Of a DNA stretch of 40,313 nucleotides, positions 411 through 40,313 are shown one piece after another. A program made the position numbers and the translations under genes. The notes under the pieces were generated by a model. The model saw only the letters and a list, made by a program, of their open reading frames with translations. It was not told the DNA's origin and did not search any database. The stretch spans positions 1 through 40,313 of the IMG/VR virus record IMGVR_UViG_3300020451_001732; one strand, 5' to 3'. The stretch is from a virus. The first letter of the stretch is position 1. Each line of letters begins with the position of its first letter.

Positions 411-418
411 TATAAATA
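411..418 (+). promoter_or_regulatory. T4-type late promoter match (TATAAATA)
   Basis: TATAAATA is an exact match to the T4 late-promoter -10 element. It lies in the intergenic gap, 25 bases before the gp6-like start codon. This position leaves room for a short leader carrying AAAGG at 433-437, 6 bases before the ATG at 444. T4-like phages use such elements with a gp55-type sigma factor for virion genes. In an AT-rich genome the octamer can occur by chance, but this is the only exact intergenic copy I found. Confidence 0.6.
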
Positions 419-3941: not shown

Positions 3942-3942
3942 T
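3930..3942 (+). repeat. 13-base direct repeat, copy 2 (end of gp6-like gene)
   Basis: Identical to bases 375-387. Here the repeat also contains the first two bases of the ATG of the giant structural gene (3941-3943). Confidence 0.6.
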
Positions 3943-24484: not shown

Positions 24485-25459
24485 ATGGCATATCAAACAG
24501 GTGATGCAATTTTAGATGATCATTATAATGGTTTTGTTTCTACAGATACAAACAATATCAACAGAATTACAGGCACAGGCACAGATGAATTTGGTTATGG
24601 CACTGGTGATTTGGCCACTGTTGATACATCTACCACAGTACAAGCATCACAATGGACTGCCTTATTAGCAAAACTTAATATTGCAAAGAGTCACCAAGAT
24701 TCCACAATAAACATTTCATCTTTTTCAGTTTCATCGGGTGATGTTATTGCGGCAATTGCCAATGTTGCAACTGACATTGGTACTGTTACAACAAACAAAG
24801 CCAACGTAAAAGCAGATGGCATAACTGCAAATGCATACACCACAAAAACATTTACAGGTTCTTGGACCACTAATGTAATCTATGAATTTAAACTTGCTTT
24901 TGCTGGTGGCGACGAGGCAAGATTCTTTTTCAATGCTGGTGGAACAATAACAACAGCAGTTGGATTAAGTGGACACACATCAGATGACAAGGCAAACGAA
25001 TGGAAAGACTTGTTGGAAACACTTACTGGTACATTTACATTTGATCATCAGACCTGTTCAATTGGTGGCAATGGCACAGCAAACACACTTACTACTTCAA
25101 AAGGATATTACGATCTTACAACTTCATATGTGGTGCATTTAAAAATGTTTGCAGATACATCACCTTATGCTGACAACTTTGCACAATTAGAGATCAAAGG
25201 TTCTGCTGTACACGCCGACGCCCGTGATAACCATGGAGAGACAATATTCTTCAAATGGACACTATCAGATGCGGCGGCCGACCAGGCTGACCAAGGGCAA
25301 GCCCCACAGGATGCTCTTGATGCCGCTGTAACGGCCCTTGACATTGTGGATGGAAATTTAGCATTTACTGGTAACTACAATCAACCTGATGCAACACACC
25401 TTGGATCAGTGCCATCAGGCTCAGTCACATACACTTCATTAACAGAAACTCAAGCATAA
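24485..25459 (+). CDS. Virion structural protein, 324 aa
   Basis: Resembles a structural protein recurrent next to the fibre genes of cyanophage-type myoviruses: an opening with DDHYNGFVSTDTNNINRITG, FGYGTGDLATVDTSTTV, QWTALLAKLNIAKSHQ, then a Thr/Ala-rich beta region and KTFTGSWTT. The second half has FKLAFAGGDEARFFFNAGG and many aromatic beta strands, then ends in low-complexity Thr/Ser. There is no signal peptide or membrane segment. The ATG directly follows the upstream stop, with AGGAG at 24473-24477. It closes the appendage block; a 41-base gap follows. Exact location in the particle is unknown. Confidence 0.7.
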   Translation: MAYQTGDAILDDHYNGFVSTDTNNINRITGTGTDEFGYGTGDLATVDTSTTVQASQWTALLAKLNIAKSHQDSTINISSFSVSSGDVIAAIANVATDIGTVTTNKANVKADGITANAYTTKTFTGSWTTNVIYEFKLAFAGGDEARFFFNAGGTITTAVGLSGHTSDDKANEWKDLLETLTGTFTFDHQTCSIGGNGTANTLTTSKGYYDLTTSYVVHLKMFADTSPYADNFAQLEIKGSAVHADARDNHGETIFFKWTLSDAAADQADQGQAPQDALDAAVTALDIVDGNLAFTGNYNQPDATHLGSVPSGSVTYTSLTETQA

Positions 25460-25500: not shown

Positions 25501-25818
25501 ATGGACTCTGCAGAATTATCAAACTTTGCCAAAATGCGTTTCAATCAATCTTTGGCCAAAAAAAATTTAGATGCTAAGATCGAATCGATTCTTACTCTTA
25601 CATATGGTGGTGGCCTGTTCAACATAGATTATTCTCTAATATCTTTTGTAAACGCCATGCATCAAAACAATCAAACTGAAATGGTTCTGCGAGACTCATT
25701 TAAAAATCCTGTCAAGATTGACAACATAAAGGATTTTTTAGATCAACTTATTGAAAGATATCAAGAAGTAACCAATGAATATTATGCAGAACATCAACAA
25801 AACACCAACACCAGATAA
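25501..25818 (+). CDS. Hypothetical phage protein, 105 aa
   Basis: Small soluble protein beginning MDSAELSNFAKMRFNQSLAK. It contains a helical basic segment, TLTYGGGLFNIDYSLISFVN and a C-terminal helix ending YYAEHQQNTNTR. The pattern Met-Asp-Ser-Ala-Glu-Leu, YGGGLF and a late NPVKID segment recalls small proteins near the structural genes of marine T4-like phages, but I cannot name a function. No clear Shine-Dalgarno site precedes the ATG. The 41-base upstream gap is AT-rich and contains TATAAGTA overlapping the start codon. Its 3' end overlaps the next gene by 44 bases. Confidence 0.65.
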   Translation: MDSAELSNFAKMRFNQSLAKKNLDAKIESILTLTYGGGLFNIDYSLISFVNAMHQNNQTEMVLRDSFKNPVKIDNIKDFLDQLIERYQEVTNEYYAEHQQNTNTR

Positions 25819-26632
25819 CGGAATAGTTCTTATTGCCTATCAGAGTCGGCATATAGACTATGTTAAACTTGCTACTGTATGTGCCAAGTTGATAAAGAAA
25901 CACATGATTAACAATCATATCACGCTAATGACTGATGAAAAGGTAGATGATCCTGTGTTTGACAATGTTGTATTTGCAGATCCAAATGGCCCAATATCTA
26001 ACAGAGCATTGGTAGGATCATCACATAATGATATTTGGATAAATGGAAATCGTCCAGATGTGTATGAAGTGTCACCATACAAAAATACACTTTTATTGGA
26101 TGTAGACTATTTTGTGTTTAATAATTCTCTTGATGCTTTATTTGGATCAATTGATACTTTTTGTTTCCATGACAAAGTGTATGATTGTGCAGATTCAAAA
26201 TCATTAGAATCACTTAAAACATTTGGACATTACAAGATGCCTCACCATTGGGCCACTGTTTTATATTTTACAAAATGCAAAGACAGTGAAGCATTGTTCA
26301 AGGCAATGAAAATGATCAGAGACAATTGGAAATATTACAGAAAATTTTTTAGAATACATGAAAGCAGAACATATAGAAATGATTTTAGTTTGGGAATAGC
26401 ATACGATATAGTAAAAGGATTTATGCGACACAAATCAAATTTTATTCCATGGCACTTGACAACACTACCTGTTGAGATTGAAGTAGCAGATGTAAATGAA
26501 ACCGGCATACAATTTGTATCAGTATCTAATAAGCGTATGAAATGTTCTACACTGGGCAATAATGTTCATGTGTTACAAAAAGCAAACAATAAAAAATTAA
26601 TGGAGCAACTAGAAAATTATGCCACAACGTGA
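25775..26632 (+). CDS. Glycosyltransferase-like protein (GT-A type), 285 aa
   Basis: Probable nucleotide-sugar-dependent transferase of GT-A fold. The opening NGIVLIAYQSRHIDYVKLA fits the first beta strand and helix. SPYKNTLLLDVDYFVF then matches the classic 'sPy..tLyLDaDv' segment with a DxD-like Asp109-Val-Asp111 for metal and nucleotide-sugar binding. A histidine pair follows in PHHWATVLYF. The rest is unlike well-known families, and the sugar and acceptor are unknown. Start: ATG at 25775, or the in-frame ATG at 25784; I used the first. The gene overlaps the previous one by 44 bases and the next by 14. It is paralogous in layout to the next protein, so the two may act as a pair. Confidence 0.6.
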   Translation: MNIMQNINKTPTPDNGIVLIAYQSRHIDYVKLATVCAKLIKKHMINNHITLMTDEKVDDPVFDNVVFADPNGPISNRALVGSSHNDIWINGNRPDVYEVSPYKNTLLLDVDYFVFNNSLDALFGSIDTFCFHDKVYDCADSKSLESLKTFGHYKMPHHWATVLYFTKCKDSEALFKAMKMIRDNWKYYRKFFRIHESRTYRNDFSLGIAYDIVKGFMRHKSNFIPWHLTTLPVEIEVADVNETGIQFVSVSNKRMKCSTLGNNVHVLQKANNKKLMEQLENYATT

Positions 26633-27485
26633 ACAACACAAAGAACAATGCGGATTTTTTACAATAGCACAAAACACTGAAGATTGTGATTATGTAAGAC
26701 TAGCATATCTGTTGGCATTAAGCATTAAAGCAACACAGTCTGAAATTAGATCGTTTGCTGTGGCAGTTGATGATCCTGATGCGGTGCCAGAAAAGTACAG
26801 AAAAGTTTTTGATTATATTATTCCTATAGGCACAGATGACGCTAAAGGCGACAAATGGAAATTAAAAAATGAATGGAAAAGTTTTTACTTGACTCCATTT
26901 AAGGAAACAATAAAGATAGAAGCAGATATGCTGATGACACAAGATATAAAAGATTGGTGGCCACTTATGCGTCAACATGAATTATTATTCACTAATAGAA
27001 TCACAGACTTTCGTGGCAACTTCAGCACAAAAAGATTTTACAGAAAAGTGTTTGACAATAACATGATGCAAGATGTGTACAACGGATTTATGTATTTTCG
27101 TTATACAAAATGGGTAAAAAAATATTTCGATGTGGTACGGTCATTGTTTAATGAATGGACATCTATAAATGATAATGTTCTTATTAAAACAAATGAACCA
27201 GTGCCTACAACGGATGTGGTAATGGGCGTGGCAGTAAAAATAATGAATGCAGAGTCCAAATGTATCAATCCTGGTATGTCCATTCCAAGTTTTGTGCATA
27301 TGAAAGCCAAAATAAATGGTGGTTATAAAAATGATGATCACTGGCCTAACAAGTTAGGTTTCTTTTGGCAGTCACCAAAGCACATAAAAATCAACTCAGT
27401 AAGACAACATCTGCCAATACACTATCATGATAAAAGTGTAGCAACAGATGAATTAATATCAAAATATGAAAAGGAGATAGCATGA
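26619..27485 (+). CDS. Glycosyltransferase-like protein (GT-A type), 288 aa
   Basis: Second transferase-like protein with the same layout as its neighbour: CGFFTIAQNTEDCDYVRLAY, a helix, FAVAVDDPDAVP, then LTPFKETIKIEADMLMTQDI. This aligns with the DxD segment of the upstream protein, but the first acidic residue is Glu (Glu101-Ala-Asp103), so the motif is imperfect. Later aromatic-rich stretches (WVKKYFDVVRSLFNEW, GFFWQSP) and an HLPIHYHDKS end are present. A transferase role is supported by the conserved layout, but activity is uncertain given the altered motif. Overlaps: 14 bases with the upstream gene and four (ATGA) with the downstream gene. Confidence 0.55.
   Translation: MPQREQHKEQCGFFTIAQNTEDCDYVRLAYLLALSIKATQSEIRSFAVAVDDPDAVPEKYRKVFDYIIPIGTDDAKGDKWKLKNEWKSFYLTPFKETIKIEADMLMTQDIKDWWPLMRQHELLFTNRITDFRGNFSTKRFYRKVFDNNMMQDVYNGFMYFRYTKWVKKYFDVVRSLFNEWTSINDNVLIKTNEPVPTTDVVMGVAVKIMNAESKCINPGMSIPSFVHMKAKINGGYKNDDHWPNKLGFFWQSPKHIKINSVRQHLPIHYHDKSVATDELISKYEKEIA
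27471..27476 (+). promoter_or_regulatory. Strong ribosome-binding site for the gene at 27482
   Basis: AAGGAG lies 5 bases before the ATG at 27482, inside the end of the upstream gene. It is the best Shine-Dalgarno match I saw in this stretch. Confidence 0.65.
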
Positions 27486-27877
27486 GTAATGATATAGAAG
27501 GTGATAATTTTTTTGCGGCTTTGAGTCAATTTCAAAATCAGCCAGAAAAAGTTATACAAAATAAAATATATTTCACAAAAGAAGGTGAAATAAAGAAAGT
27601 AAGTGCAGACCCAACTACCGATGATATGGGACTGGAATCTATAGACGTTGATTCAGATACTGCAACTGAACTTAAAATTAAAGGGACACTAAAACATTAT
27701 GTGGTCGACGGTGAATTAAAAGTTCGTCCAGCAGAAGAAAAATTGTCCAGTTCTGATTTTATGTTAGGTAAAACTGAAGTTGAAGCAGATATAGGGACAA
27801 TTACAGATGCAAATGATCCTACTATTGTACATGGCACAGGATCAGAAGTAGATGATAATCAATCAAAGTACAAATAA
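27482..27877 (+). CDS. Hypothetical acidic protein, 131 aa
   Basis: I do not recognise a family. It is an acidic, hydrophilic protein with many Asp, Glu, Thr and Ser residues and no hydrophobic core segment, signal peptide or cysteine. It begins MSNDIEGDNFFAALSQFQNQ, has an ELKIKGTLKHYVVDGELKV beta-hairpin-like middle, and ends in an Asp/Thr-rich tail. It may be partly disordered. The start is set by a strong AAGGAG and a four-base overlap (ATGA) with the upstream gene. The stop overlaps the next start by one base, so it is translated within the glycosyltransferase-like block. It could be a small partner or regulator, but nothing in the sequence shows this. Confidence 0.7.
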   Translation: MSNDIEGDNFFAALSQFQNQPEKVIQNKIYFTKEGEIKKVSADPTTDDMGLESIDVDSDTATELKIKGTLKHYVVDGELKVRPAEEKLSSSDFMLGKTEVEADIGTITDANDPTIVHGTGSEVDDNQSKYK

Positions 27878-28806
27878 TGTTGATTGATGTTGCTGACTTA
27901 GACGTCATATTCTTAAGTTATGACGAACCCAATGCAGATGAAAATTGGGCAGATTTAAAAAGTAAAGTTCCATGGGCAACCAGAGTGCATGGAATAGATG
28001 GATCGGATGCGGCTCATAGAGCGGCCGGAGAAGCCAGCAATACTGAACGTTTTATATTAGTAGATGGTGATAACAAAGTTAAAGAAAACTTTTTTAATCT
28101 ACAATTAAATTTAACATCAGTTTCACGCAACGCAACATTACGTTGGCGTGGTCTTAACAATATCAATGGTCTAATGTATGGTAACGGTGGGTTGTCATGT
28201 TGGACCAAAGACTTTGTTGCAAATATGAATTCCCATGAAAATTCTGACCCAACTGACAAAGCAAGTTTAGTTGAGTTTTGTTATGGCGGTAATCATGGTG
28301 AATATCTTGCTCTCAACGGATGTTTTAGTACAACATACAACAATAAAACACCATATCAAGCATGGCGAGCCGGTTTCAGAGAAGGTGTCAAAATGTGTTT
28401 AGATCGAGGAGACAAATACAACATCGAAACATTACAAGAACAAGCAGTCGCAAGAAACCTAGATCATTTGATTGTATGGATGAATATTGGCGCAGATGTA
28501 GACAATGGTACATGGGCCATGTTAGGTGCAAGACAAGGATGTGAAATGACCATGTGTACTGATTGGGATTGGGTACAAGTACGTGATTTCAAATATTTAA
28601 AAAGTTTCTGGGAAGAAAATTTACAGCAACATGAAAATGATCAAGACTTTGCTCAACAAAAATGTATAGACATTGGTGAAAAGATAAAATATAAACTTCA
28701 ATTGCCGATAATAGATATGCCTGCTGAACAAAGTAAGTTTTTTAAAGAGTTCTTTGTTAAAAAACAATCTAATGATGTTATGGAACTGGATAATGGTAGA
28801 CAATAA
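27877..28806 (+). CDS. Glycosyltransferase-like protein of a marine-phage family, 309 aa
   Basis: Belongs to a GT-A-like family frequent in marine phages. The layout is DVIFLSYDEPNADENWADLK (first strand and helix), PWATRVHGIDGSDAAHRAAG, then FILVDGDN with Asp63-Gly-Asp65 in the DxD position, then RWRGLNNINGLMYGNGGLSC (family: W/N-P-I-N-x-L-x-YG-x-GG). A large C-terminal half follows with WMNIGADVDNGTWAMLGARQ. The N-terminal half matches, motif by motif, the repeat unit of the ORF at 38278, which I take as the degenerate tandem form. The donor and acceptor are unknown. The start overlaps the upstream stop by one base; the 3' end overlaps the first radical SAM gene by 14 bases. Confidence 0.65.
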   Translation: MLIDVADLDVIFLSYDEPNADENWADLKSKVPWATRVHGIDGSDAAHRAAGEASNTERFILVDGDNKVKENFFNLQLNLTSVSRNATLRWRGLNNINGLMYGNGGLSCWTKDFVANMNSHENSDPTDKASLVEFCYGGNHGEYLALNGCFSTTYNNKTPYQAWRAGFREGVKMCLDRGDKYNIETLQEQAVARNLDHLIVWMNIGADVDNGTWAMLGARQGCEMTMCTDWDWVQVRDFKYLKSFWEENLQQHENDQDFAQQKCIDIGEKIKYKLQLPIIDMPAEQSKFFKEFFVKKQSNDVMELDNGRQ

Positions 28807-30196
28807 CGCAAAAGGTGATACGGTACACGAAACATCAGCAGGTTATGAGTCTGATTTTATGCGTTCTGCCCGTGAGGCACAAAAAAAGTTAGACAAAGTA
28901 TCTCCCAGTATGTGTTTGGCAAAATGGAATCAAGTGTCATTGCATTTACCTACAGGACTAAACAATTCTTGCTATCATCCGCCCTTACACAAAATGGAAG
29001 TTGGGAACATTCATAACACGCAGTATAAAAAAGAACAACGCAAAAAGATGTTAGAAGGTGAACGTCCTAATGAATGTTCTTACTGTTGGAATATAGAAGA
29101 TACAGGGCAACTGAGTGATAGACATTATAGATCAGGTGAACCATGGGCAATGATGGACTTTGATAAAATAATGGCTGATCCAATGGCAGATATAAATCCA
29201 AGATACGTTGAAGTTAATTTTAATCATGCTTGTAATTTCAAATGCAGTTATTGTTCTCCACAGTTTTCTACAACATGGGGGCAAGAGATAAATGAACATG
29301 GTGCTTATCCAACACAATCTCCTCATAATGCTCCGGAACATTTTGTTGGTGATCGTAAACCTATACCTAATAAAGATACGAATCCTTATGTAGATTCTTT
29401 TTGGGAATGGTGGCCTGATTTGTATAAGGACCTAAAACATTTTAGAATGACAGGCGGTGAACCGTTGATGGATAAAAATACATTTAGAGTGTTAGATTAT
29501 GTAATTGAGAATCCCAAAGATGACTTACATTTAGCAATAACAAGTAATTTTAATCCACCGTCTTCACAAGTATGGGATCGTTACATTGATAAACTGCAAA
29601 AAATATGTGTCGAGGGAGGAATCGAACACTTCATGCAGTATGTTTCTGTAGACACATGGGGGCAACACGCAGAATATATTCGCAACGGACTAGATTTTGA
29701 TGTTTTATGGACAAATGTACATAGGTTTTTAGAAAGAGTACCAGAAAGAACATCACTTACGTTTATAATAACCTATAATAATCTCAGTGTGCTAGGTATA
29801 AAAGAATTACTATGGAATATACTTGCTTTACGCAGACGTTACAGTAAAGATTATCAACGTATATGGTTCGATACTCCGATATTGCGTGAACCTGCATGGC
29901 AAAGTATAAAATTATTGCCAGAAGAATATCAAATGATACACCAAGAAGCCATTGATTTTATGCAGGACAATATAGAAACAAATGAAAATAGATTGCATGG
30001 ATTTAAAGATTATGAAATACAACGTATGCAAAGGGATTTAGAGTGGTGGAAGACAGGATTAGAAGTAAAAGAAATGCGTAGACACAGATCAGATTTTGTT
30101 AAATTTTTTTCAGAACATGATCGTAGACGAGGAACAAACTTTTTGGATACATTTCCCCAGATGGCGGAATTTTGGCAGTTGTGTAAAAATGCGTGA
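28793..30196 (+). CDS. Radical SAM protein 1, Twitch/SPASM-containing (type A)
   Basis: Radical SAM enzyme: a [4Fe-4S] cluster cleaves S-adenosylmethionine to start radical chemistry. The cluster motif is C147-x3-C151-x2-C154 in HACNFKCSYC, with GGEP at 221-224 for SAM binding. Before the core, an N-terminal cysteine/histidine region (CLAKW, SCYHPPLHKM, ECSYCWNIED) resembles a Twitch/SPASM half-domain that can hold an auxiliary Fe-S cluster; here it precedes the barrel rather than follows it. The C-terminus ends with the shared signature FLDTFPQMAEFW. I use the ATG at 28793 (467 residues) over a TTG at 28754, because GGAA at 28782-28785 is spaced 7 bases and overlap is smaller. First of five such genes in a row; substrate unknown. 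Confidence 0.85.
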   Translation: MVDNNAKGDTVHETSAGYESDFMRSAREAQKKLDKVSPSMCLAKWNQVSLHLPTGLNNSCYHPPLHKMEVGNIHNTQYKKEQRKKMLEGERPNECSYCWNIEDTGQLSDRHYRSGEPWAMMDFDKIMADPMADINPRYVEVNFNHACNFKCSYCSPQFSTTWGQEINEHGAYPTQSPHNAPEHFVGDRKPIPNKDTNPYVDSFWEWWPDLYKDLKHFRMTGGEPLMDKNTFRVLDYVIENPKDDLHLAITSNFNPPSSQVWDRYIDKLQKICVEGGIEHFMQYVSVDTWGQHAEYIRNGLDFDVLWTNVHRFLERVPERTSLTFIITYNNLSVLGIKELLWNILALRRRYSKDYQRIWFDTPILREPAWQSIKLLPEEYQMIHQEAIDFMQDNIETNENRLHGFKDYEIQRMQRDLEWWKTGLEVKEMRRHRSDFVKFFSEHDRRRGTNFLDTFPQMAEFWQLCKNA

Positions 30197-31532
30197 AAAA
30201 GATTTAGATTATAAAGCAAGAGTCTTAGACACAAAGTCTGACTCGTTCTGTGGTGCCAAATGGTACAATGCCACTATATGGTTAGGGTCAGGTATGACAA
30301 CATCATGTCATCACCCGTTGCCACACAAAATTGATGTAGAAGCAGTTAAGAAAAATCCTAAAGCATTACATAACACACCTGAAAAGAAACAACAACGTAA
30401 ACAAATGAAGTGTGGCGACAGACCTAAAGGTTGTGAATACTGTTGGAAGATAGAAGACATGGGGCCTAAGCACGTTTCAGACAGAATATATAAATCTAAA
30501 ATATACAGCGATGAAGATTTACAAACAGCATATGATACTCCAGAAGATCAAGATGTAGATTTACAAACACTTGAAATATCATTTGATAGAACTTGCAATT
30601 TTGCTTGTTCTTATTGCAATCCTGCATTTTCTACAACCTGGGTGAAGGATATAAAAAATAATGGCAGATATGAAAGTTTAGAATCAGACGGAAGAAATCA
30701 CTTTACACACATACACGAAGAATCACAACTGTATGGGTACCAGGAAGAAAATCCTTACATAGAAGCATTTTGGAAATGGTGGGAGTCAGACTTACATAAA
30801 ACTTTACAAGAACTAAGAGTCACAGGCGGAGAACCATTAATGAGTGCTGATATGTGGAAACTGTTTGACTGGTTTAAAGATAATCATGGAAAAAGCGATA
30901 TGAGACTTGCAATTAATTCAAACTTGGGAGGTAAAGACTCTCTCATAGATAAACTAATTGCTAAATCACAACACGTTGAACATTTTCATTTGTACACATC
31001 TTGTGAAGCAATTTTTGACCAAGCAGAATACATTAGAGATGGATTAGTATGGAGCACATGGACAAAAAATGTAGAAAGAATTTGTTCAGAAGGTAACTTA
31101 GAGGGATTTCATATGATGTGTACTGTAAATGCATTATGTTTATTCAGTCTTACAGATTTTCTTGACTATTGTGTTGAACTAAAAACCAAATATGGTAAGG
31201 ATTTTCCAACATTTACGTTAAATATTTTGAGATTCCCAAGTTTTCAATCACCACTTGTATTGCCAACTAAAGCAAAAATAAAACAAAGGCAAATATTACA
31301 AGATTGGTTAGAAAGAAACATGGATAATAAATTGTTGCACGAGATGGAAATAAATCAGGTGAAAAGATTAATAGAATATTTACAAAGTGTTGAGACTCCG
31401 CATTCAGAAGCATTTGAAATGCCAAAGTTATTAAACGATTTTAAACATTTTTATATGCAATATGACATAAGAAGGAACAAAAATTTTGATACAACTTTCC
31501 CTAAATTAGCAGAATGGTATAATAGTATATGA
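30189..31532 (+). CDS. Radical SAM protein 2, Twitch/SPASM-containing (type A)
   Basis: Close relative of protein 1. The N-terminal cysteine region has FCGAKW, SCHHPLPHKI and CEYCWKIEDM. The radical SAM motif is C136-x3-C140-x2-C143 in RTCNFACSYC, with GGEP near 213-216. Shared with protein 1 are an ENPY-type segment and WEWW/WKWW aromatic clusters before GGEP, and the ending FDTTFPKLAEWY. I place the start at the ATG at 30189 (447 residues), eight bases before the previous stop ends; a longer frame starting at 30096 lies wholly inside the upstream gene. Spacing and pairing suggest a recent duplication of type A. The four-base overlap (ATGA) with the next gene points to coupled translation. 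Confidence 0.85.
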   Translation: MREKDLDYKARVLDTKSDSFCGAKWYNATIWLGSGMTTSCHHPLPHKIDVEAVKKNPKALHNTPEKKQQRKQMKCGDRPKGCEYCWKIEDMGPKHVSDRIYKSKIYSDEDLQTAYDTPEDQDVDLQTLEISFDRTCNFACSYCNPAFSTTWVKDIKNNGRYESLESDGRNHFTHIHEESQLYGYQEENPYIEAFWKWWESDLHKTLQELRVTGGEPLMSADMWKLFDWFKDNHGKSDMRLAINSNLGGKDSLIDKLIAKSQHVEHFHLYTSCEAIFDQAEYIRDGLVWSTWTKNVERICSEGNLEGFHMMCTVNALCLFSLTDFLDYCVELKTKYGKDFPTFTLNILRFPSFQSPLVLPTKAKIKQRQILQDWLERNMDNKLLHEMEINQVKRLIEYLQSVETPHSEAFEMPKLLNDFKHFYMQYDIRRNKNFDTTFPKLAEWYNSI

Positions 31533-32863
31533 CAGACAACAAAATAAACAAGGAAGACATAGAATCATATTATAAAACCTATGACTATAACAGTCGCAGA
31601 CCTGTGTTTATAGAACTAGAAATGTTAGACTCAAAACAGGAGGAATTGTTAATGCGTAGTGATACTTTCTGTATATATCCATGGACACATATTCACGCAT
31701 GGCCAGATGGTTATGTGTATCCATGTTGTGGTACTGACATTAATCCTTTAGGAACATTAAAAGAAAATACACTAGAAGAACTATGGAACAGTGAAAAACA
31801 AAAACAATTACGACTAGATATGCTAAACGGAACAAAAAATGAAATATGCAGACGCTGTCATGAGCAAGAAGAATCAGGATTCTTTAGTATGCGTAATAGT
31901 GCTAACAAACATCTTGGACATCACATAGAAAGGGTCAGTAAAACACAACCAGACGGTTCGTATGACGATTTCAATATTGTTTACTGGGATGTTAGATTTA
32001 GTAATTTATGTAATTTTAGATGCAGGTCATGTGGACCAAACTTCAGTTCAAATTGGTTTGATGACGCTGTTAAAATAAATGGAGGTAAACCAATAGGACA
32101 GAAGAAAGTAATATATGCAGGAAAAGATAAAGAAGATGTTTGGGAACAAATGAAACCACATATACCTTACTTAGAACAAGTTTATTTTGCCGGCGGTGAG
32201 CCAATGATAATGGAAGAACATTATCGAGTACTGAAAGAATTAGTACGATTAGAAAAATTCGATGTGAAGTTAATTTATAACACAAACTTTTCAATGATGA
32301 AATACAAAGACCTTGACGTGTTAGAGTTTTGGAAACTGTTTGATTCTGTGTCTGTAGGAGCATCACTAGATGCCGCAGGCCCAAGAGCAGAACTAATTCG
32401 TAAAGGCACAGACTGGGATCAAGCCTGTCGCAACAGAGAACGTATGTTAAAAATATGTCCTGATGTAGATTTTTATGTATCACCAACATTGAGTTTAATG
32501 AATTCACTTCATGTTCCCGATTTCCATCGTGAATGGATCGATCGGGGGTTTTTGAGACATCTAGACCTTAATATTAATATCTTGCAGGGTCCAAACTATT
32601 ATCGTATAGATGCTCTTACTCCCGATTTAAAACAACAAGTCAAAGAAAAATACTTAGAACACATTGACTATATAGAACCACACGATCCATTGACACGAGC
32701 CACTAATGGTTTTAAATCTGCGATACAATTTATGGAGGCAAATGATAACACTCCATTGTTGCCTGAATTCAACAGGGTAATGACTAGACTAGATGGTATA
32801 AGAGATGAAAGTTTTTATAATGTTTTTCCAGAATTAAAAGAGTTGGAGCAGTATGTCAGATAG
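31529..32863 (+). CDS. Radical SAM protein 3, Twitch/SPASM-containing (type B)
   Basis: Radical SAM enzyme with a textbook Twitch/SPASM-like segment at the N-terminus: FCIYPWTHIHAWPDG, VYPCCG, LGTLKENTLEELWNSEKQ and CRRCHEQE, about residues 47-115. The core motif is C161-x3-C165-x2-C168 in LCNFRCRSCG, with GGEP at 222-225 and an NTNFS segment. The end FYNVFPELKELEQY matches the shared C-terminal signature. In canonical SPASM/Twitch enzymes the domain lies after the barrel; here it is first. The start overlaps the previous stop by four bases (ATGA). Related enzymes modify peptides or anaerobic sulfatases, but no precursor peptide is obvious here. Confidence 0.87.
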   Translation: MTDNKINKEDIESYYKTYDYNSRRPVFIELEMLDSKQEELLMRSDTFCIYPWTHIHAWPDGYVYPCCGTDINPLGTLKENTLEELWNSEKQKQLRLDMLNGTKNEICRRCHEQEESGFFSMRNSANKHLGHHIERVSKTQPDGSYDDFNIVYWDVRFSNLCNFRCRSCGPNFSSNWFDDAVKINGGKPIGQKKVIYAGKDKEDVWEQMKPHIPYLEQVYFAGGEPMIMEEHYRVLKELVRLEKFDVKLIYNTNFSMMKYKDLDVLEFWKLFDSVSVGASLDAAGPRAELIRKGTDWDQACRNRERMLKICPDVDFYVSPTLSLMNSLHVPDFHREWIDRGFLRHLDLNINILQGPNYYRIDALTPDLKQQVKEKYLEHIDYIEPHDPLTRATNGFKSAIQFMEANDNTPLLPEFNRVMTRLDGIRDESFYNVFPELKELEQYVR

Positions 32864-34103
32864 AAAACTTTGTCCTCTTCCATGGGTAAGTGTTGAAACA
32901 TCGCCATTTGGTGAACTGCGTCCTTGCTGTTTATATGATGACTACATCAAAAAAGATGATGGCACAAACTATAATATTGCTAAAGGTGACAGCATTTCAG
33001 ATGCGTTCAACAGCACATCAATGACAGAATTACGGCAAGAGTTTTTAGATGGAGGACAACCGGACGGATGCAGGAGATGTTGGTCTGAGGAAGATGCTGG
33101 TATTATTAGCAAAAGATTAAGAAGTGTTGAACAGTATGAAAAACAAAATATAAACTTTTATACAAATGAAGCAGACAAAGTTCGATTCTTAGACTTAAAA
33201 CTAGGAAATATTTGTAATTTAAAATGTAGAATATGTGGAAGTTGGTCTAGTTCTAAATGGGCGGCCGAGGAAATATCATACTTAAAGGCAGATAAGAATT
33301 TTGAAAGGACACAAGTTTTACAAGATCAATACAATTATAAAAGGAAACTTTTAAAAGATGGTGCATGGCCAAGAGAAGTTAGTGCTGTGTGGACTGAACT
33401 AGATTCAATAATGGAAAATATTGATTTAATGGAGTTTACAGGCGGCGAACCTATGATGATTCAAGAACAATTTGATCTCTTGAAAAGTGCTGTAAAAAAT
33501 GGACATTCAAAAAATATCAAAGTGCATTACAACACAAATGGAACTCATTATGTGCAGGACGCCATAGATAATATATGGCCAAATTTTAAGACTGTTGAAC
33601 TAGCATTTAGTATAGATGATGTTGGACAAAAATTTGAATATCAGCGATACGGGGCTAATTGGAACGAAGTAAACCAAAATATAACAAATTATCACAAACT
33701 TGCAAGTGAATCATGGTTTGCTTCACAAGTGTGTATGACGTTCAGTGCTTTTAATATATTAAGTGTAGGTAACTTGCTTGAATGGGTAGACACACAGCCT
33801 TTTGGTCATGTGTATTTTAATTTAATGCATGATCCAAAACATTTTAACATGAAAGTTTTGCCAGATGTAGCAAAAGAAAAAATAGCAACAAAGATAATGC
33901 AACAATCTATAAACACAAAATACTATGAAAATGTGAAAAATCTTTGTAACTTTTTATTACAAAAAGATCAAGAAATAGAGGACAACAAAGAAAAGTATTG
34001 GGCAGATTTCAAAAGACACCTTGCACAAACTGATAAATTTAGGAATCAAAATTTTGCAGATACTTTTCCTGAACTATATGTGTTGATAGAAGAATGGCTG
34101 TAA
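32853..34103 (+). CDS. Radical SAM protein 4, Twitch/SPASM-containing (type B)
   Basis: Opens directly with the N-terminal cysteine domain: LCPLPWVSVETSPFGEL, RPCCLYDDY and CRRCWSEEDAG. The radical SAM motif is C121-x3-C125-x2-C128 in ICNLKCRICG, with GGEP at 197-200 and YNTNGTHY, the segment that in related enzymes precedes the sixth strand of the barrel. The end FADTFPELYVLIEEW again carries the shared C-terminal signature. At 416 residues it is the shortest of the five. The gene overlaps its upstream neighbour by 11 bases and its downstream neighbour by 10. Sequence drift from protein 3 is large, so this is an old duplication rather than a recent one. Confidence 0.87.
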   Translation: MSDRKLCPLPWVSVETSPFGELRPCCLYDDYIKKDDGTNYNIAKGDSISDAFNSTSMTELRQEFLDGGQPDGCRRCWSEEDAGIISKRLRSVEQYEKQNINFYTNEADKVRFLDLKLGNICNLKCRICGSWSSSKWAAEEISYLKADKNFERTQVLQDQYNYKRKLLKDGAWPREVSAVWTELDSIMENIDLMEFTGGEPMMIQEQFDLLKSAVKNGHSKNIKVHYNTNGTHYVQDAIDNIWPNFKTVELAFSIDDVGQKFEYQRYGANWNEVNQNITNYHKLASESWFASQVCMTFSAFNILSVGNLLEWVDTQPFGHVYFNLMHDPKHFNMKVLPDVAKEKIATKIMQQSINTKYYENVKNLCNFLLQKDQEIEDNKEKYWADFKRHLAQTDKFRNQNFADTFPELYVLIEEWL

Positions 34104-35407
34104 AAAAGAATCCCAATGAATATTTGTGTATGGCTCCTTGGACGCACACCTATCTTTCTCCGCAGACAGAAAGAAGAATGTGTTGTACAAGTGTAGAACC
34201 AGCACAAAATTTTAAACAATACATAGACGCCGAAGAAGGAAACAACAAATACGAACCTTTGACTTTAGAACAACATTGGAATTCAGACCATATGAAGTCA
34301 GTCCGTAGACGTATGATGGCTGGTGAAGAATTGCCAGAATGTAAAGTATGTAACAAGCAACTTTTAAATGCAGACGTGTACAGAAGTTGGTTCAACACAA
34401 TGTATAAAAAATATGAGGACGACATTTGGACTAAAACAAATGAAGATGGCGAAACGTCGATGAAACCTATTAGTTATGATTATAGATTTTCAAATCTATG
34501 TAATTTTAAATGTAGAATGTGTGGTCCAATGTTATCTAGTAGTGCTGAAGCAGAAGCAAGACTAATGAAATCCTGGCACATTAAAGGGGACCCATGGATG
34601 ATGCCACCACTGAAAAAAATAATTACAGAGTTTCAGGATACACAAATCGAAAAAGAATTTGCAGAAGCAATCGAAGATAAACGTATGGAGGAAATATACT
34701 GGGTGGGTGGCGAACCACTTATGTATGAACAACATTGGAAATATCTCCAACGTATAATAGAATTAGATTATCCTGAACAAGTCATGCTGAGATACAACAC
34801 AAACTTATCCAGAGTAAATTATAAAAAACAAAATTTATGGGAATTACTCTCACATTTTCCTAAATGGAATATAATGGCAAGTCTTGATGCTACTGGTAAA
34901 ATAGGTGAATACATCCGGACCGGTCTACAATATGATAAGTTTATAGAACATTTAGAACAAGGACTAAAAACAGCAACAGGACAGCATCAACGAATTGATT
35001 TAGATTTAACTATTACCACACCTGGTTTACTAGACCTAAAAAATATGTTTGATTTGAGTGTAAAATACAGAACTATTTTATATACAAAAGTTGTATTTAC
35101 ATTTTCAAATGATTTGATATTAAGTCCTATATCTGTCCCTAAGGAAATATTACACGAAATAATAGATGATGTGCTAGAGTATGCAAAACCAAAAGCAACA
35201 TGGAGGCAAGAAAATTTTATTAACACACTTGAAGCAATAAAGACAAGACCAACTACACAAGAAGAATACCATAACAGTTACAGTCAGGGATGGAAAGAAG
35301 GCAAAGCAAGGATCAAAAAACTTGAAAACTTCCGCAAAGACAGTTATACTTTAGATAATATATTGGAACAACACAAAGGACTTACAGCATGGTACCAATC
35401 AATATAG
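34094..35407 (+). CDS. Radical SAM protein 5, Twitch/SPASM-containing (type B)
   Basis: Fifth consecutive member. N-terminal cysteine domain: LCMAPWTHTYLSPQTE, RMCCTS and ECKVCNKQ. Radical SAM motif C136-x3-C140-x2-C143 in LCNFKCRMCG; GGEP at 205-208 in YWVGGEPLM; RYNTNLSRV follows. Unlike the other four it lacks the FxxxFPxL ending; it closes with a Lys/Glu-rich helix and AWYQSI. The C-terminal part has YSQGWKEGKARIKKLENFR, a charged helix not seen in its neighbours, so its partner or substrate may differ. The 3' end overlaps the SGNH hydrolase gene by 19 bases, which ties the radical SAM array to the tailoring-type genes downstream. Confidence 0.86.
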   Translation: MAVKKNPNEYLCMAPWTHTYLSPQTERRMCCTSVEPAQNFKQYIDAEEGNNKYEPLTLEQHWNSDHMKSVRRRMMAGEELPECKVCNKQLLNADVYRSWFNTMYKKYEDDIWTKTNEDGETSMKPISYDYRFSNLCNFKCRMCGPMLSSSAEAEARLMKSWHIKGDPWMMPPLKKIITEFQDTQIEKEFAEAIEDKRMEEIYWVGGEPLMYEQHWKYLQRIIELDYPEQVMLRYNTNLSRVNYKKQNLWELLSHFPKWNIMASLDATGKIGEYIRTGLQYDKFIEHLEQGLKTATGQHQRIDLDLTITTPGLLDLKNMFDLSVKYRTILYTKVVFTFSNDLILSPISVPKEILHEIIDDVLEYAKPKATWRQENFINTLEAIKTRPTTQEEYHNSYSQGWKEGKARIKKLENFRKDSYTLDNILEQHKGLTAWYQSI

Positions 35408-36138
35408 TATCATTTGGAGACAGTTTTACATTTGGTAATGAATTGCCCGGAGACAATCCTGGCCCAAGCACAATGACATGGGCGGGCAAACTGGCATACA
35501 AATTTGATCGCTACTATGAATGCAGAGCAGAAGGTGGCAATTCTAATTCTGCTATTGCACGTTCTGTGATAGATTGGTTAGCACACAAACAAAAGGATCA
35601 AGAATGTATGGCAATGATTATGTGGTCTTTTCCTGGTAGATATGAGTATTTGTTCAATCATGACAAGCAATGGCACAATGTTACGCCATGGGAAGCAGAT
35701 CCTGATATTGATGTATTAAAGAAACAATATAAAAATTTTAGTGAAGAAACATACAAAGAAAATAAAGAAAAACTGGAAAAAATTAAAGGAACACCCATAC
35801 AGTTTCATGCAAAGTCACATTTTGAACACATTGATAGTCATGAATATGCATCTTATATGTCTATGAAAGACATACTACTAGTGCAGAATACATTGAAAGC
35901 ATATGATGTTCCTTATATGTTCTGCTTTGCACATAACAGTATATTCAACTTAGAACCAAGCAACACACTATTATATTCGTTGCTTGATCAAAGTAAATGG
36001 TTTCAATTTGAAGACAATCTTGGATTTATGCAGTGGGCAGAAAAAGAAAATTACGAATTTGGTTCAACACATCCATTAGAAGATGCACATGAAGGCGCGG
36101 CAAATCTTATGGAACAATGGATCGATGATAATTACTAG
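35389..36138 (+). CDS. SGNH/GDSL-type hydrolase
   Basis: Probable esterase or acyl hydrolase of the SGNH fold. Block I is IVSFGDSFTFGNE with Ser12 as candidate nucleophile. GGNSNSAIAR matches the block II/III region, and HPLEDAHEGAANLM near the C-terminus holds the candidate catalytic His of block V. Family members remove or transfer acyl groups on sugars and cell-wall polymers. There is no signal peptide, so it acts in the infected cell unless packed in the particle. Start: ATG at 35389 within the end of the last radical SAM gene (19-base overlap). The position next to transferase genes fits a sugar-tailoring role, by inference. Confidence 0.75.
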   Translation: MVPINIVSFGDSFTFGNELPGDNPGPSTMTWAGKLAYKFDRYYECRAEGGNSNSAIARSVIDWLAHKQKDQECMAMIMWSFPGRYEYLFNHDKQWHNVTPWEADPDIDVLKKQYKNFSEETYKENKEKLEKIKGTPIQFHAKSHFEHIDSHEYASYMSMKDILLVQNTLKAYDVPYMFCFAHNSIFNLEPSNTLLYSLLDQSKWFQFEDNLGFMQWAEKENYEFGSTHPLEDAHEGAANLMEQWIDDNY

Positions 36139-36139
36139 T

Positions 36140-36256
36140 ATGATTAACACAATCAAACAGTGGTGGAAAAACGTAATGTTCAAGCGGAAGGCCCGCAAAG
36201 AATTTAAGAAAAAAATGAAAGAACTTAAAAAACGTGACCCATTCATCTATCACTGA
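36140..36256 (+). CDS. Small basic protein, 38 aa
   Basis: Short ORF from ATG at 36140 to TGA at 36254-36256. It starts one base after the SGNH hydrolase stop and overlaps the methyltransferase start by 23 bases, so it fills what would otherwise be the only gap of this block. The product is extremely basic and helical: MINTIKQWWKNV, a Lys/Arg-rich helix, and the ending LKKRDPFIYH. I recall small marine-phage proteins ending in a similar KKRDPFIY motif, which favours a real gene over chance, but this is memory rather than a search. The Trp pair and charge suggest binding to nucleic acid, membrane or an acidic protein. Function unknown. Confidence 0.65.
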   Translation: MINTIKQWWKNVMFKRKARKEFKKKMKELKKRDPFIYH

Positions 36257-36800
36257 TTATCATGCAAGTCTATTAGACCTACCAATAGAAAAGGGCGTAA
36301 TTAAAACAGATATCGACGGCTGGTTGCAACCAACAGAAGCACACTTTCTATATAAATGTGCTTATGAATCAGCAAATATATTAGAACTAGGTCCGTATCA
36401 TGGATTGTCTACAACCATAATAGCACAGGCAAAAATTGATTCTGGTAACATCGGTACAATTACAACTGTTGATGTATTTTCTAAAAATATTGAAAAAACA
36501 AAACACAATGTAGAAAAAATTGCACCTGATGTAAAAATAAGTTATAATATAGATGACGCAATAAATTTTGTAGTCAAACAAAATGAACTACCTATGCCGG
36601 TATTTTATGATATGATTTTTATAGATGCTAATCACACGTATGAATGGATGAAACTTCTTACACAAAAAGTAAAACCATTGTCTGATGGTATTATGCTATT
36701 TCATGATTACTATCATCGATCAACCGGAGTTAAACAAGCAGTGGCAGAAGTGTTAGGAGAAGCAGATAAAAAAATTGGTTCTATAGGAGTGTACGAGTGA
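36234..36800 (+). CDS. Class I SAM-dependent methyltransferase
   Basis: Small Rossmann-fold methyltransferase (Methyltransf_24-like). Motif I is ILELGPYHGLSTTIIAQA near residues 49-66. TTVDVF is the acidic end of the second strand, DMIFIDANHTYEWM holds the fourth-strand Asp and a candidate metal/substrate His, and MLFHDYYHRSTGVKQAV follows. Such enzymes often methylate sugars or small metabolites in surface-glycan clusters. The start is a GTG at 36234; no in-frame ATG or TTG precedes motif I, and the frame gives 188 residues. It overlaps the 38-aa ORF by 23 bases and the next gene by four (GTGA). Confidence 0.8.
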   Translation: MTHSSITDYHASLLDLPIEKGVIKTDIDGWLQPTEAHFLYKCAYESANILELGPYHGLSTTIIAQAKIDSGNIGTITTVDVFSKNIEKTKHNVEKIAPDVKISYNIDDAINFVVKQNELPMPVFYDMIFIDANHTYEWMKLLTQKVKPLSDGIMLFHDYYHRSTGVKQAVAEVLGEADKKIGSIGVYE

Positions 36801-38278
36801 AGATACTGGGACTTAGTGCTTTGTTTCATGATGCCAGTGCCGCATTTATAGAAGATGAAAAAATTATTTGGGCCGGTCATGCAGAAAGATATAACGGGAA
36901 AAAATTAACAAAACATCTTAACAGTGATCTTATAGATGAAGGGTTACGCAGAGGCGGAAGGCCAGACGTAATTGCTTGGTATGAAAATCCATGGAAGAAG
37001 AAAGTACGTCAACTATATGCAGGAGAGTATAAAGAAGCATTTTCATATAGCAATTTACCAAGCCATTATTTAAAATGTTTTCCACAACTAAAAGGCATTC
37101 CTATAAAATATTGTGACCATCATTACAGTCATGCCTGTGCTGGATATTTTACATCTACGTTTAATGAATCTGCTATTGTTGTTATAGATGCAATAGGTGA
37201 ATGGGATACTGCAACAATATGGCACGCAAAAGGAAACAAAATTAAAAAAGTAAAAAGTTATAGATATCCAAATTCCTTAGGACTATTATATACTGCCTTC
37301 ACAGTTAGAGCAGGACTGCGTCCCGTGGATGAAGAATATATTCTAATGGGTATGGCAGGTTGGGGTGAACCAAAATATGCAGGTGATATAATGCGTGATT
37401 TTATACATTTAGATTTTGGTGATTACAAAGACAGCGACGTGTTTTTGCTGAAACAAAATGTACATCGTGGTATAGGCGAATGGTTTCCGAAAGCAGATTT
37501 GATGGACCTCGCGGCCAGTATTCAAAAAGTTACAGAACAAACAATAGCAATGATAATGCAACAAGCAAGTCAACTAGTTGACAGTCCTAATTTATGTTAT
37601 CAAGGCGGAGTAAGTTTGAATTGTGTAGCAAATCATATACCTACAAAATGGTTTGATAACGTATGGATTATGCCTAATCCAGGAGATAGCGGTAATGCAT
37701 TAGGTGCCGCCCTAGCACAAAGAAATGATTATGTTGTATGGAAAACTCCTTACTTAGGAACAAATATTCCAGGTCTGTATCCAGTCGACAAAGCATTAGA
37801 CTTATTGCTAAAAGGTGAAATATTTGGTATTGCAAGTGGCCAAGCAGAGTATGGCCCAAGAGCATTGGGTAACAGATCGTTGGTGGCTGATCCACGTGGT
37901 TCGGAAATAAAGGACCGTGTAAATGAAATAAAACGTAGGCAAAAGTTTAGACCATTTGCGCCAGTAATACTAGAAGAATATGTACATGATTATTTTGATA
38001 TTCCTGCAAAAACCAGTCCTTATATGCAATTTACAGGTGTCTGTAAGTACCCGGATAAGTTTCCTGCAATCACGCATATAGACGGCACTAGTCGCGTTCA
38101 AACGGTGTCTAAAACGCAAAATAAGGGCCTTTACAGCCTGATAAAAGCCTTTATGGATCAAACGGGTTGCCCAATGATTTTGAATACATCTTTGAACATA
38201 AGAGGCAAACCTATGGTCAATACAAGGGAAGATGCTGATGCTTTTGAAAAGGAGTACGGTATTACCGTAGTTTCATAA
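36797..38278 (+). CDS. Carbamoyltransferase, NodU/CmcH family
   Basis: Transfers a carbamoyl group from carbamoyl phosphate, via an ATP-dependent intermediate, to a hydroxyl of a sugar or natural product. The N-terminal Kae1-like half shows LGLSALFHDASAAFIED, the metal-type motif DHHYSHACAGYF (His108, His109, His112) and VVIDAIGEWDTATIW. The C-terminal half shows EYGPRALGNRSLVADPR (about 351-367), RPFAPVILEEYVHDYF and ILNTSLNIRGKPMVNTREDA. It is 493 residues, a little shorter than TobZ-type members (~570), with all main blocks kept. Start is a GTG at 36797 in a four-base overlap with the methyltransferase stop. The acceptor is likely a glycan made or altered by the neighbouring transferases, by inference. 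Confidence 0.9.
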   Translation: MKILGLSALFHDASAAFIEDEKIIWAGHAERYNGKKLTKHLNSDLIDEGLRRGGRPDVIAWYENPWKKKVRQLYAGEYKEAFSYSNLPSHYLKCFPQLKGIPIKYCDHHYSHACAGYFTSTFNESAIVVIDAIGEWDTATIWHAKGNKIKKVKSYRYPNSLGLLYTAFTVRAGLRPVDEEYILMGMAGWGEPKYAGDIMRDFIHLDFGDYKDSDVFLLKQNVHRGIGEWFPKADLMDLAASIQKVTEQTIAMIMQQASQLVDSPNLCYQGGVSLNCVANHIPTKWFDNVWIMPNPGDSGNALGAALAQRNDYVVWKTPYLGTNIPGLYPVDKALDLLLKGEIFGIASGQAEYGPRALGNRSLVADPRGSEIKDRVNEIKRRQKFRPFAPVILEEYVHDYFDIPAKTSPYMQFTGVCKYPDKFPAITHIDGTSRVQTVSKTQNKGLYSLIKAFMDQTGCPMILNTSLNIRGKPMVNTREDADAFEKEYGITVVS

Positions 38279-40313
38279 TGCATGACATTTTTATATGGGA
38301 TAAACCTACGTGTGAACAGGAAATAAACAAAATAAAAAACCAGTTTCCGTTTGCTAACACAGTAGAAGGCAACTGGATAGAAGCATTTAAAACATCTGCA
38401 CAAGAAAGTAAAACAAGATATTTTTGGTTACTAGACCCAGCAAATAACCACAGTGATTTCGACTTTAGATGGGAACCAGTGCCATGGGAGAGTACACACA
38501 CTCATACATTTGCTAATCAATACCAACGCCTGAGTGGCACAGTATTAGGCAATCGCAAACAAATTTTAGATTGTATTGACATAATATCCGACGTGGGTAC
38601 TATTCCTAATCTACATTTTCACGATCAAACAATTATTAGAGTTGAATCACATGATTGTTTTGATATAATAGATGGCGATTATATCACTGCAATTAAAATA
38701 GGTGCAAGGAAAAGCACAACTGATTTTTATTGGATATTGGATCCGGGTAACAACCATGATAACTTAGACATGAATTGGGTGCCTGACAAATTTGAAGAGA
38801 AACATACTTGGGCATTCAGTAATGAATACCAAACTATAAGTGGCACAATGTTGTTGAATAAAAAAAATATTATGGACACACAAATTATGAGTTTTGAAGA
38901 CATTCCGAACTTGCATACCCATTCTAACAAATTAAAAAGTAATGAACAAAAGAAACAGGTATTCTTCTATGATCATACAACAGACTTTATAGATTTTGTA
39001 AAAGAAGCGGCACAACATTCTGACTCAACTTTATTTTGGATTTTGGATTTTAATAACGATCATAGTAATTTTGATATGGAGTGGCGCCCAGAACTTTGGG
39101 AAAGCAAGGATACACATATATTTTCAAATCAGTATCAAAAATTTTCATACACAATGTTGGTTAATAAAAACTCAATTTTAAAAAATATTACAAATATAAC
39201 AAGCATTGACAATTTGCCAAATGCACATTATAGAGATGATATTGTTTTACAAAAAAATGTATATCATGATAAATTTATCATTGCTGATAACAGTACAACT
39301 GGTCAGGATGAAATAAAGAAACTGCAAACATTGTATCCTAATGTAAAAATCTTAGATGGAAGTTTGGTTGATGTTATTAATCAAGGAGCACAGTTGTCAA
39401 CCACAAGACAATTTTGGATTATTGACCCCTGTAATAATCATGACAACTTTGATTTCGGTTGGGTTCCAGAAGCATGGAATGACAAAGACAGTTGGAGTTT
39501 TGGAAATGAATATCAGGTTGTGACAGGCACAATGTTACTAAACAAAGAACAAATACAAACAAAGATTGTTGAAACATTTAATGACATTCCATTTTTAAAT
39601 TATCATACAAAGATAAAGTTACAAAAAACAAAAGGACAATATGATGTTTTTGTGATGGAAGATTATAAGAATGCAGAAGAATTGGAAAAAATTATTAAAC
39701 AATTTCCTAATGCAAATTTAATCCCTGAAAATAATTATGAGTCTGCATATTATAAAGCACAGGCATTATCTAGCACAAAACATTTTTGGTTATTGGATCC
39801 AGCAAACAGTCATAACAATTTAGATTTTGATTGGATGCCAGCACCATGGGAACAAAATACTGTACACGCATTTGGGAACCAGTATCAGAATTTCAGTGCT
39901 ACTGTATTAGGTCACAAAGATGTAGAAGCAACCAATCTTAAGTTTCATAAGGAGATGAAACTAACAATAGGACAAGGACAGAAGGATATTTTTTATTACA
40001 CTTCTGATCAAGACTTTATAACAAGATTAAAAGAATGTGCTGAACAGGCAACCAGTAGACACTTTTGGTTGTTAGATAAATCTACAGACAATGATAAGTT
40101 AGACTTGGACTGGGCACCTGCTCCGTGGGAACTGGATCATACTCATGCTTTTGGCAATCAATATCAAAAGTTTTCACACACAGTTTTTGCACATACAGAC
40201 ACAATAAAAAATAATTTAGATATAATAAAGGACTTTAATACAATCCCTAATGTACATTTCCACGATGACGTCACACTTACAAAAACTGTACAAAGTTATG
40301 ATATTTTTGTGTA
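38278..40313 (+). CDS. Tandem-repeat glycosyltransferase-like protein (3' end cut by window)
   Basis: Reading frame from ATG at 38278 (one-base overlap with the carbamoyltransferase stop) to the window edge with no stop: 678 complete codons. It consists of six complete degenerate units and the first strand of a seventh. Each unit has a DIFIW-type strand, a helix, a FP-x-A step, then FWLLDPANNH, D[FL]D[FLM]xWxPxxWE, HxFxNQYQxxSxT and often an IPNLHFHD end. FW cores start near residues 49, 151, 253, 379, 503 and 596. The layout matches the N-terminal half of the protein at 27877, with DPANN where that one has DGDN, and NQYQ...T[VM]L where it has NNINGLMYG. I infer a chain of GT-A-like domains with mostly lost or changed metal motifs, perhaps a binding or scaffold protein. 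Confidence 0.75.
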   Translation, partial: MHDIFIWDKPTCEQEINKIKNQFPFANTVEGNWIEAFKTSAQESKTRYFWLLDPANNHSDFDFRWEPVPWESTHTHTFANQYQRLSGTVLGNRKQILDCIDIISDVGTIPNLHFHDQTIIRVESHDCFDIIDGDYITAIKIGARKSTTDFYWILDPGNNHDNLDMNWVPDKFEEKHTWAFSNEYQTISGTMLLNKKNIMDTQIMSFEDIPNLHTHSNKLKSNEQKKQVFFYDHTTDFIDFVKEAAQHSDSTLFWILDFNNDHSNFDMEWRPELWESKDTHIFSNQYQKFSYTMLVNKNSILKNITNITSIDNLPNAHYRDDIVLQKNVYHDKFIIADNSTTGQDEIKKLQTLYPNVKILDGSLVDVINQGAQLSTTRQFWIIDPCNNHDNFDFGWVPEAWNDKDSWSFGNEYQVVTGTMLLNKEQIQTKIVETFNDIPFLNYHTKIKLQKTKGQYDVFVMEDYKNAEELEKIIKQFPNANLIPENNYESAYYKAQALSSTKHFWLLDPANSHNNLDFDWMPAPWEQNTVHAFGNQYQNFSATVLGHKDVEATNLKFHKEMKLTIGQGQKDIFYYTSDQDFITRLKECAEQATSRHFWLLDKSTDNDKLDLDWAPAPWELDHTHAFGNQYQKFSHTVFAHTDTIKNNLDIIKDFNTIPNVHFHDDVTLTKTVQSYDIFV
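38284..40294 (+). repeat. Six tandem protein repeats of about 95-125 residues
   Basis: Units start near residues 3, 126, 227, 331, 455 and 569, and a seventh begins at 673. Core comparison: YFWLLDPANNHSDFDFRW, FYWILDPGNNHDNLDMNW, LFWILDFNNDHSNFDMEW, QFWIIDPCNNHDNFDFGW, HFWLLDPANSHNNLDFDW and HFWLLDKSTDNDKLDLDW. Divergence at the DNA level shows these are old duplications. Confidence 0.85.

Follow-up and report, generated by a model that had tools for sequence, protein, structure and literature searches.

The virus record IMGVR_UViG_3300020451_001732 carries five adjacent genes for radical SAM enzymes in which a Twitch-type domain stands before the barrel, and sequence comparison identifies the five as old, distinct paralogues that are inherited together. 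As judged from its conservation, the array is real and functional-looking; it is routine in its virus group and belongs to a described enzyme family. The whole IMG/VR record of 40,313 bases was analysed, and is referred to here as the window.

Five radical SAM enzymes with an N-terminal Twitch domain

Five adjacent open reading frames, termed R1 to R5, occupy positions 28793-35407 on the + strand, neighbours overlapping by 4-11 bp:

R1, 28793..30196, + strand: N-terminal-Twitch radical SAM enzyme of the S-C-x-H-P sub-type; NF033640 326 bits; orthologues in most cassettes
R2, 30189..31532, + strand: N-terminal-Twitch radical SAM enzyme of the S-C-H-H-P sub-type; NF033640 321 bits; sister clade of R1
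R3, 31529..32863, + strand: N-terminal-Twitch radical SAM enzyme of the C-C sub-type; NF033640 402 bits; the bacterial relatives are nearest to this type
R4, 32853..34103, + strand: N-terminal-Twitch radical SAM enzyme of the C-C sub-type; NF033640 347 bits; lowest conservation among R1-R5
R5, 34094..35407, + strand: N-terminal-Twitch radical SAM enzyme of the C-C sub-type; NF033640 300 bits

An earlier note on this DNA had described five adjacent overlapping genes here, each with CxxxCxxC, GGEP and an N-terminal cysteine array, and both the coordinates and the motifs proved right. All five proteins match the NCBIfam model NF033640 ('twitch domain-containing radical SAM', N_Twi_rSAM) with 300-402 bits, where the curated cut-off is 170; the alignments extend over about 385-398 of the 398 model positions and have E-values of 2e-89 to 4e-120. 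As these E-values are accompanied by seven cysteines that are 100% conserved in each orthogroup, a chance resemblance is excluded. Pfam PF04055 (radical SAM) scored R3-R5 over and R1 and R2 under its cut-off; the CxxxCxxC cluster motif and a GGEP-type SAM motif are present in every one of the five and place them in the radical SAM superfamily. Enzyme class and cassette are thus established.

Each protein has a four-cysteine array at its N terminus, formed in R1 by C41, C60, C95 and C98, the second within the 'SC-x-HP' motif, and in R3 by C48, C66/67, C107 and C110, with a CC pair. In R1 these residues and the radical SAM cluster cysteines C147/C151/C154 are invariant (n=137 sequences), as are the cluster cysteines of R2 (n=135) and R5 (n=124), and the same holds for all seven cluster cysteines in every one of the five types (124-137 sequences per type). 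Pfam SPASM matched the N terminus of R3 (49 bits, residues 48-111) and R4 (23.7 bits) and stayed just under cut-off for R5; R1 and R2 were not recognised by this model. The N terminus of a profile built from 70 family members matched the C-terminal Twitch of BtrN (residues 183-258, E 3.6e-5), and further along the profile there was a weak alignment to the N-terminal core of BtrN; relative to BtrN, the domain order is therefore swapped. NF033640, Pfam SPASM and the BtrN Twitch profile match hence all bear out the earlier reading of a Twitch/SPASM-type domain ahead of the barrel. A seven-cysteine SPASM array with two auxiliary clusters was not found; only four N-terminal cysteines are common across the family, and a one-cluster Twitch type rather than a two-cluster SPASM type is therefore predicted.

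BtrN, a 2-deoxy-scyllo-inosamine dehydrogenase, oxidises an aminocyclitol, and its four-cysteine auxiliary cluster has been proposed to take the electron (PMC9012708). The likeness to R1-R5 consists in the Twitch sequence match and in a similar arrangement of four cysteine ligands, whereas the Twitch follows the barrel in BtrN and precedes it in R1-R5. By cysteine pattern and profile match, R1-R5 share a predicted four-cysteine Twitch of the BtrN type. The N-terminal Twitch is part of the family name of NF033640, but that model is silent on the five orthogroups, the cassette and a function. To our knowledge, a substrate is known for none of its members.

Five types conserved in one group of viruses

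Altogether 225 viral loci were fetched, of which 176 were distinct after removal of overlapping loci; as they were fetched by similarity to proteins of the window, all fractions describe that virus group and not viruses at large. Each of R1-R5 has its own orthologue in the fetched loci (n=225), and all five orthologues occur together in 117 of the 176 distinct loci, or in 67 of 78 when only well-covered loci are counted (R3 present, at least 7 kb on either side). The commonest gene strings are R1-R2-R3-R4-R5 (44 loci) and R1-R2-R3-R5-R4 (35 loci), and many other loci deviate solely through extra copies or truncation. Apart from this R4/R5 swap and some inserted genes the order is fixed. Five genes without an intervening gene, as in the window, are found in only 20 of the 117 complete cassettes; the others have at least one extra gene inside the run.

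The tree recovers R1, R4 and R5 each as a supported clade of its own. The clade of R2 is likewise supported and takes in a single unassigned viral protein, and R3 makes up one loose group into which bacterial relatives fall. R1 and R2 are sister groups, and the sub-types SC-x-HP (R1/R2) and CC (R3-R5) coincide with a deep split, so the mixed sub-types noticed earlier are real. The array had also been called amplified. A recent tandem amplification is rejected: the other paralogues share only 21-28% identity with R3 and lie in separate clades, whereas orthologues are 43-61% identical (median) across viruses. Pairwise distances co-vary among R1-R5 with r of 0.41-0.89, and those of the NodU-type gene F2 (see below) co-vary with R1-R5 with r of 0.63-0.93 (0.93 for F2 and R1), the permuted maximum being 0.18 in both cases. 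Which residues are invariant differs between the five orthogroups, and this supports the suggestion of several related but distinct reactions.

All 50 of 50 whole viral records tested hold between 5 and 21 copies of NF033640, and in 20 of these 50 a T4-type major capsid protein scored over cut-off. Fe-S assembly genes of the ATC/IscA type were present in 12 of 35 records. In the window, baseplate wedge genes of T4 type lie upstream of the cassette, and the nearest cultured relatives of its gp6-like protein are jumbo and T4-like phages. Cultured phages are nearly devoid of the five-gene cassette and its family: distant matches to the radical SAM queries were confined to two Vibrio phages and a marine single-cell virus, and a search of 50,697 phage records with F0, the gene directly upstream of R1, gave no hit. 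Among cells, NF033640 scored over cut-off in 1 of 149 sampled genomes of Planctomycetota, and a bacterial genome scan with a single protein returned two bacterial loci, the cellular range being only lightly sampled.

Relation to published modules

The five-gene array had been thought unusual. It is routine in this uncultivated T4-like group (117/176 loci), and T4-like phages with modules of many radical SAM genes have been published before (PMC2853527, PMC5332604, PMC7029224). The Campylobacter phages CP220 and CPt10 encode 11 and 12 radical SAM proteins and an interchangeable five-gene module, which resembles the present one in lying by nucleotide-sugar-transferase-like and amidinotransferase genes and near a baseplate gene (PMC2853527). 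The CP220 proteins, however, are not members of NF033640 (annotated lengths about 250-340 aa; best score 31 bits, barrel region only), and we rejected a common family. Among T4-like marine genomes, a Tara genome is described that combines 12 radical SAM genes with genes for Fe-S assembly (PMC5332604), and pelagimyophages with radical SAM cassettes within a host recognition cluster (PMC7029224). Compared by description, the portions of these two papers available to us hold no account of five orthogroups, of the Twitch order or of a NodU link. A published description of a five-type Twitch cassette was not found in the literature outside subscription journals and preprints.

Gene neighbourhood and late promoters

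The cassette is flanked by genes for fibre-type and glycan-related proteins:

T4-type late promoter TATAAATA, 411..418, + strand: upstream of the baseplate gene at 444
F5, 24485..25459, + strand: fibre-type gene; first in the transcription unit among marine relatives
F3, 25501..25818, + strand: conserved 105-aa protein; in 69/117 complete cassettes
F1, 25775..26632, + strand: probable glycosyltransferase-like protein with an LLLDVDYF motif; in 88/117 complete cassettes, often in two copies
Upstream partner, 26619..27485, + strand: probable glycosyltransferase-like protein; homologues in 156 fetched loci
F0, 27877..28806, + strand: NDP-sugar transferase-like protein of GT-A fold, carrying an invariant D-x-D-N motif; immediate upstream neighbour of R1
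F4, 35389..36138, + strand: SGNH-hydrolase-like protein (DUF6071); Pfam DUF6071 1.1e-5, just under cut-off; in 73/117 complete cassettes
Methyltransferase, 36234..36800, + strand: SAM-dependent; Pfam Methyltransf_24 7.6e-11
F2, 36797..38278, + strand: NodU-type O-carbamoyltransferase; Pfam Carbam_trans_N 2.4e-38, Carbam_trans_C 1.6e-53

F0 stands upstream of R1 in 104 and F2 downstream of the cassette in 99 of the 117 complete cassettes; the methyltransferase is not conserved with the cassette, being found in one other locus. Some loci add an NAD epimerase (F14) and a DegT sugar aminotransferase (F16). F1 had no match in Pfam or PHROG and the protein at 26619..27485 none in Pfam, and both are probably glycosyltransferase-like from motifs judged by eye, GT8-like ones in the latter. 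The model of F0 (pLDDT 90.9) gave Foldseek matches almost all to GT-A enzymes, the best being SunS (2.4e-4), with low TM-scores. Together with the NodU-type enzyme, the epimerase and the aminotransferase, this fold was counted in favour of glycan partners. Of the 1685 proteins encoded in the cassette regions, not one shows three or more TM-like segments; a flippase or polymerase is therefore absent from these regions, which argues against polysaccharide export and for a cytoplasmic target. Neither tRNAs nor Rfam matches were found at the locus, and tandem repeats were limited to one weak 21-bp repeat.

No intergenic gap exceeds 100 bp in 114 of 117 cassettes. The late-promoter motif [TCG]ATAAATA immediately precedes F5 in 28 of 58 loci; it is also found upstream of another fibre-type gene, F7, in 12 of 56, and before none of 588 R1-R5 genes. 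TATAAATA itself occurs once in the window, against 5.2 expected, the T4-type late promoter motif being otherwise about three-fold depleted; no late promoter was found immediately upstream of the cassette in the window itself, and freshwater-like relatives mostly do not have the site, two points that weigh against the functional proposal made below. Gapless synteny and promoter positions thus support, at the level of sequence, one operon of cassette and fibre-type genes, in agreement with the earlier note.

Proposed function

From the partner genes, the gapless run, the late-promoter placement and the absence of multi-TM proteins we infer a late-expressed module of T4-like phages that would build and radically tailor a glycan on a tail-fibre or other virion protein, a proposal to which we give an even chance. 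Soluble glycosyltransferases would put a sugar chain on the tail fibre, the most likely target, or on another virion protein from the same transcription unit. R1-R5 would then each perform a different radical reaction on the glycan or on sugar precursors (a sugar carbon could be dehydrogenated, epimerised or deoxygenated, for example), and the NodU-type enzyme would carbamoylate the glycan. The mechanism would be the same throughout R1-R5: SAM would be cleaved at the CxxxCxxC cluster, the resulting 5'-deoxyadenosyl radical would abstract a substrate hydrogen, and the electron would pass back to the Twitch cluster at the N terminus, which, as in BtrN, would have four cysteine ligands. Sugar substrate, virion-protein target and each single reaction are all parts of this proposal.

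The fold of the enzymes leaves room for a peptide substrate. An AlphaFold2 model of R3 (pLDDT 95) had anSMEcpe, SkfB and a sactipeptide maturase as top Foldseek matches, and most characterised SPASM enzymes act on peptides. R1-R5 could hence directly modify side chains of phage proteins by thioether links, epimerisation or oxidation, the glycosyltransferases acting separately on the same fibre protein; this would agree with a transcription unit headed by fibre-type genes and with protein-modifying enzymes (SunS, polypeptide GalNAc-transferases) among the best fold matches of F0. In structure comparison, enzymes of sugars (BlsE, DesII) and of peptides (anSMEcpe, SuiB, SkfB) resemble the barrel equally well, at Z 12-13; the barrel therefore does not choose the substrate, and we rejected naming one from it. 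A solved-structure relative spanning the entire protein was not found for any of R1-R5. Within the overlapping genes of the cassette no precursor peptide is coded, and the small protein adjoining F0 is poorly conserved and without a shared core, so that a RiPP precursor inside the cassette was rejected as well. With carbamoyltransferase, epimerase and sugar aminotransferase pointing to sugars, we regard direct modification of side chains as unlikely.

The same glycan-type gene content would also suit enzymes that remodel a polysaccharide or lipid of the host surface, for superinfection exclusion or receptor masking, instead of the virion, and the reported position of the pelagimyophage cassettes in a host recognition cluster points the same way (PMC7029224). 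Against it, the 1685 proteins include no membrane-embedded flippase, polymerase or ligase, and late promoters next to fibre genes are a better fit for virion assembly; we consider host-surface remodelling quite improbable. A role as auxiliary metabolic genes, in the metabolism of the host or in counter-defence (examples would be low-oxygen metabolism and nucleotide analogues of the viperin kind), is a very remote prospect despite the metabolic fitness benefit that Timms et al. suggested for the Campylobacter phages (PMC2853527), as the fixed linkage is to fibre, glycosyltransferase and carbamoyltransferase genes and not to metabolic ones, and a prokaryotic viperin or anti-phage function was rejected on weak, partial-barrel matches (NCBIfam 20-33 bits, cut-off 180; PADLOC pVip 21-37 bits).

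The glycan-tailoring proposal can be taken further, to an obligate five-enzyme assembly line that would give a large uncultivated T4-like group a radical-modified, carbamoylated tail-fibre glycan, an undescribed virion decoration; this we put forward tentatively, leaning against it rather than for it. In every whole viral record tested, 5-21 enzymes of one family are retained, five of them as a fixed set; the near absence of the cassette from cultured phages may explain why it has gone unstudied. The BtrN match leads to a testable chemistry and the gene context to a testable target, the tail fibre. If the proposal is true, five new enzyme activities would come from the cassette, and radical SAM chemistry would be a standard finishing step for the host-recognition organs of many uncultivated aquatic T4-like phages.

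Between the glycosyltransferase-like genes and F0, the GT-A-fold protein directly upstream of the five-gene radical SAM cassette, the window carries a small protein gene (27482-27877). A small protein is encoded at this position in most loci, with poor conservation and in two main forms, the families F9 and F11. Downstream of the cassette, an open-ended ORF (38278-40313) of at least 678 aa consists of repeats, each roughly 100 aa long, with a 'FWLLDPANNHSDFDFRWEPVPWE' motif, and searches of this ORF against Pfam and PHROG gave no match. Of the 117 viral loci holding all five radical SAM orthologues, 45 have a member of family F10, which looks related to this ORF, downstream of the cassette. 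A further family, F12, was detected in 45 loci, mostly downstream and on the minus strand, with the following member from the fetched viral locus L074:

L074:4611-5849, F12 family protein, 413 aa

The one PHROG match of F12 was weak and led to a PHROG of unknown function. By eye the family appears amidinotransferase-like, a type of gene also present with the five-radical-SAM module of Campylobacter phage CP220.

Elsewhere in the window, a 166-aa protein (21835-22335) has the look of a 2OG-Fe(II) oxygenase when inspected by eye (H-x-D...H), and Pfam and PHROG searches returned no match for it. Adjoining the baseplate genes is a single ORF of 5013 aa (3941-18982), for whose first 2353 aa a weak hit to the carbohydrate-binding module CBM_5_12 was the sole match.

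The T4-type late promoter word TATAAATA occurs at 411-418 of the window and in related loci. Across the loci it was observed 52 times compared to 158 expected, about three-fold rarer, and its occurrences lie chiefly upstream of fibre-type genes; depletion and placement together suggest that stray late promoters are selected against.
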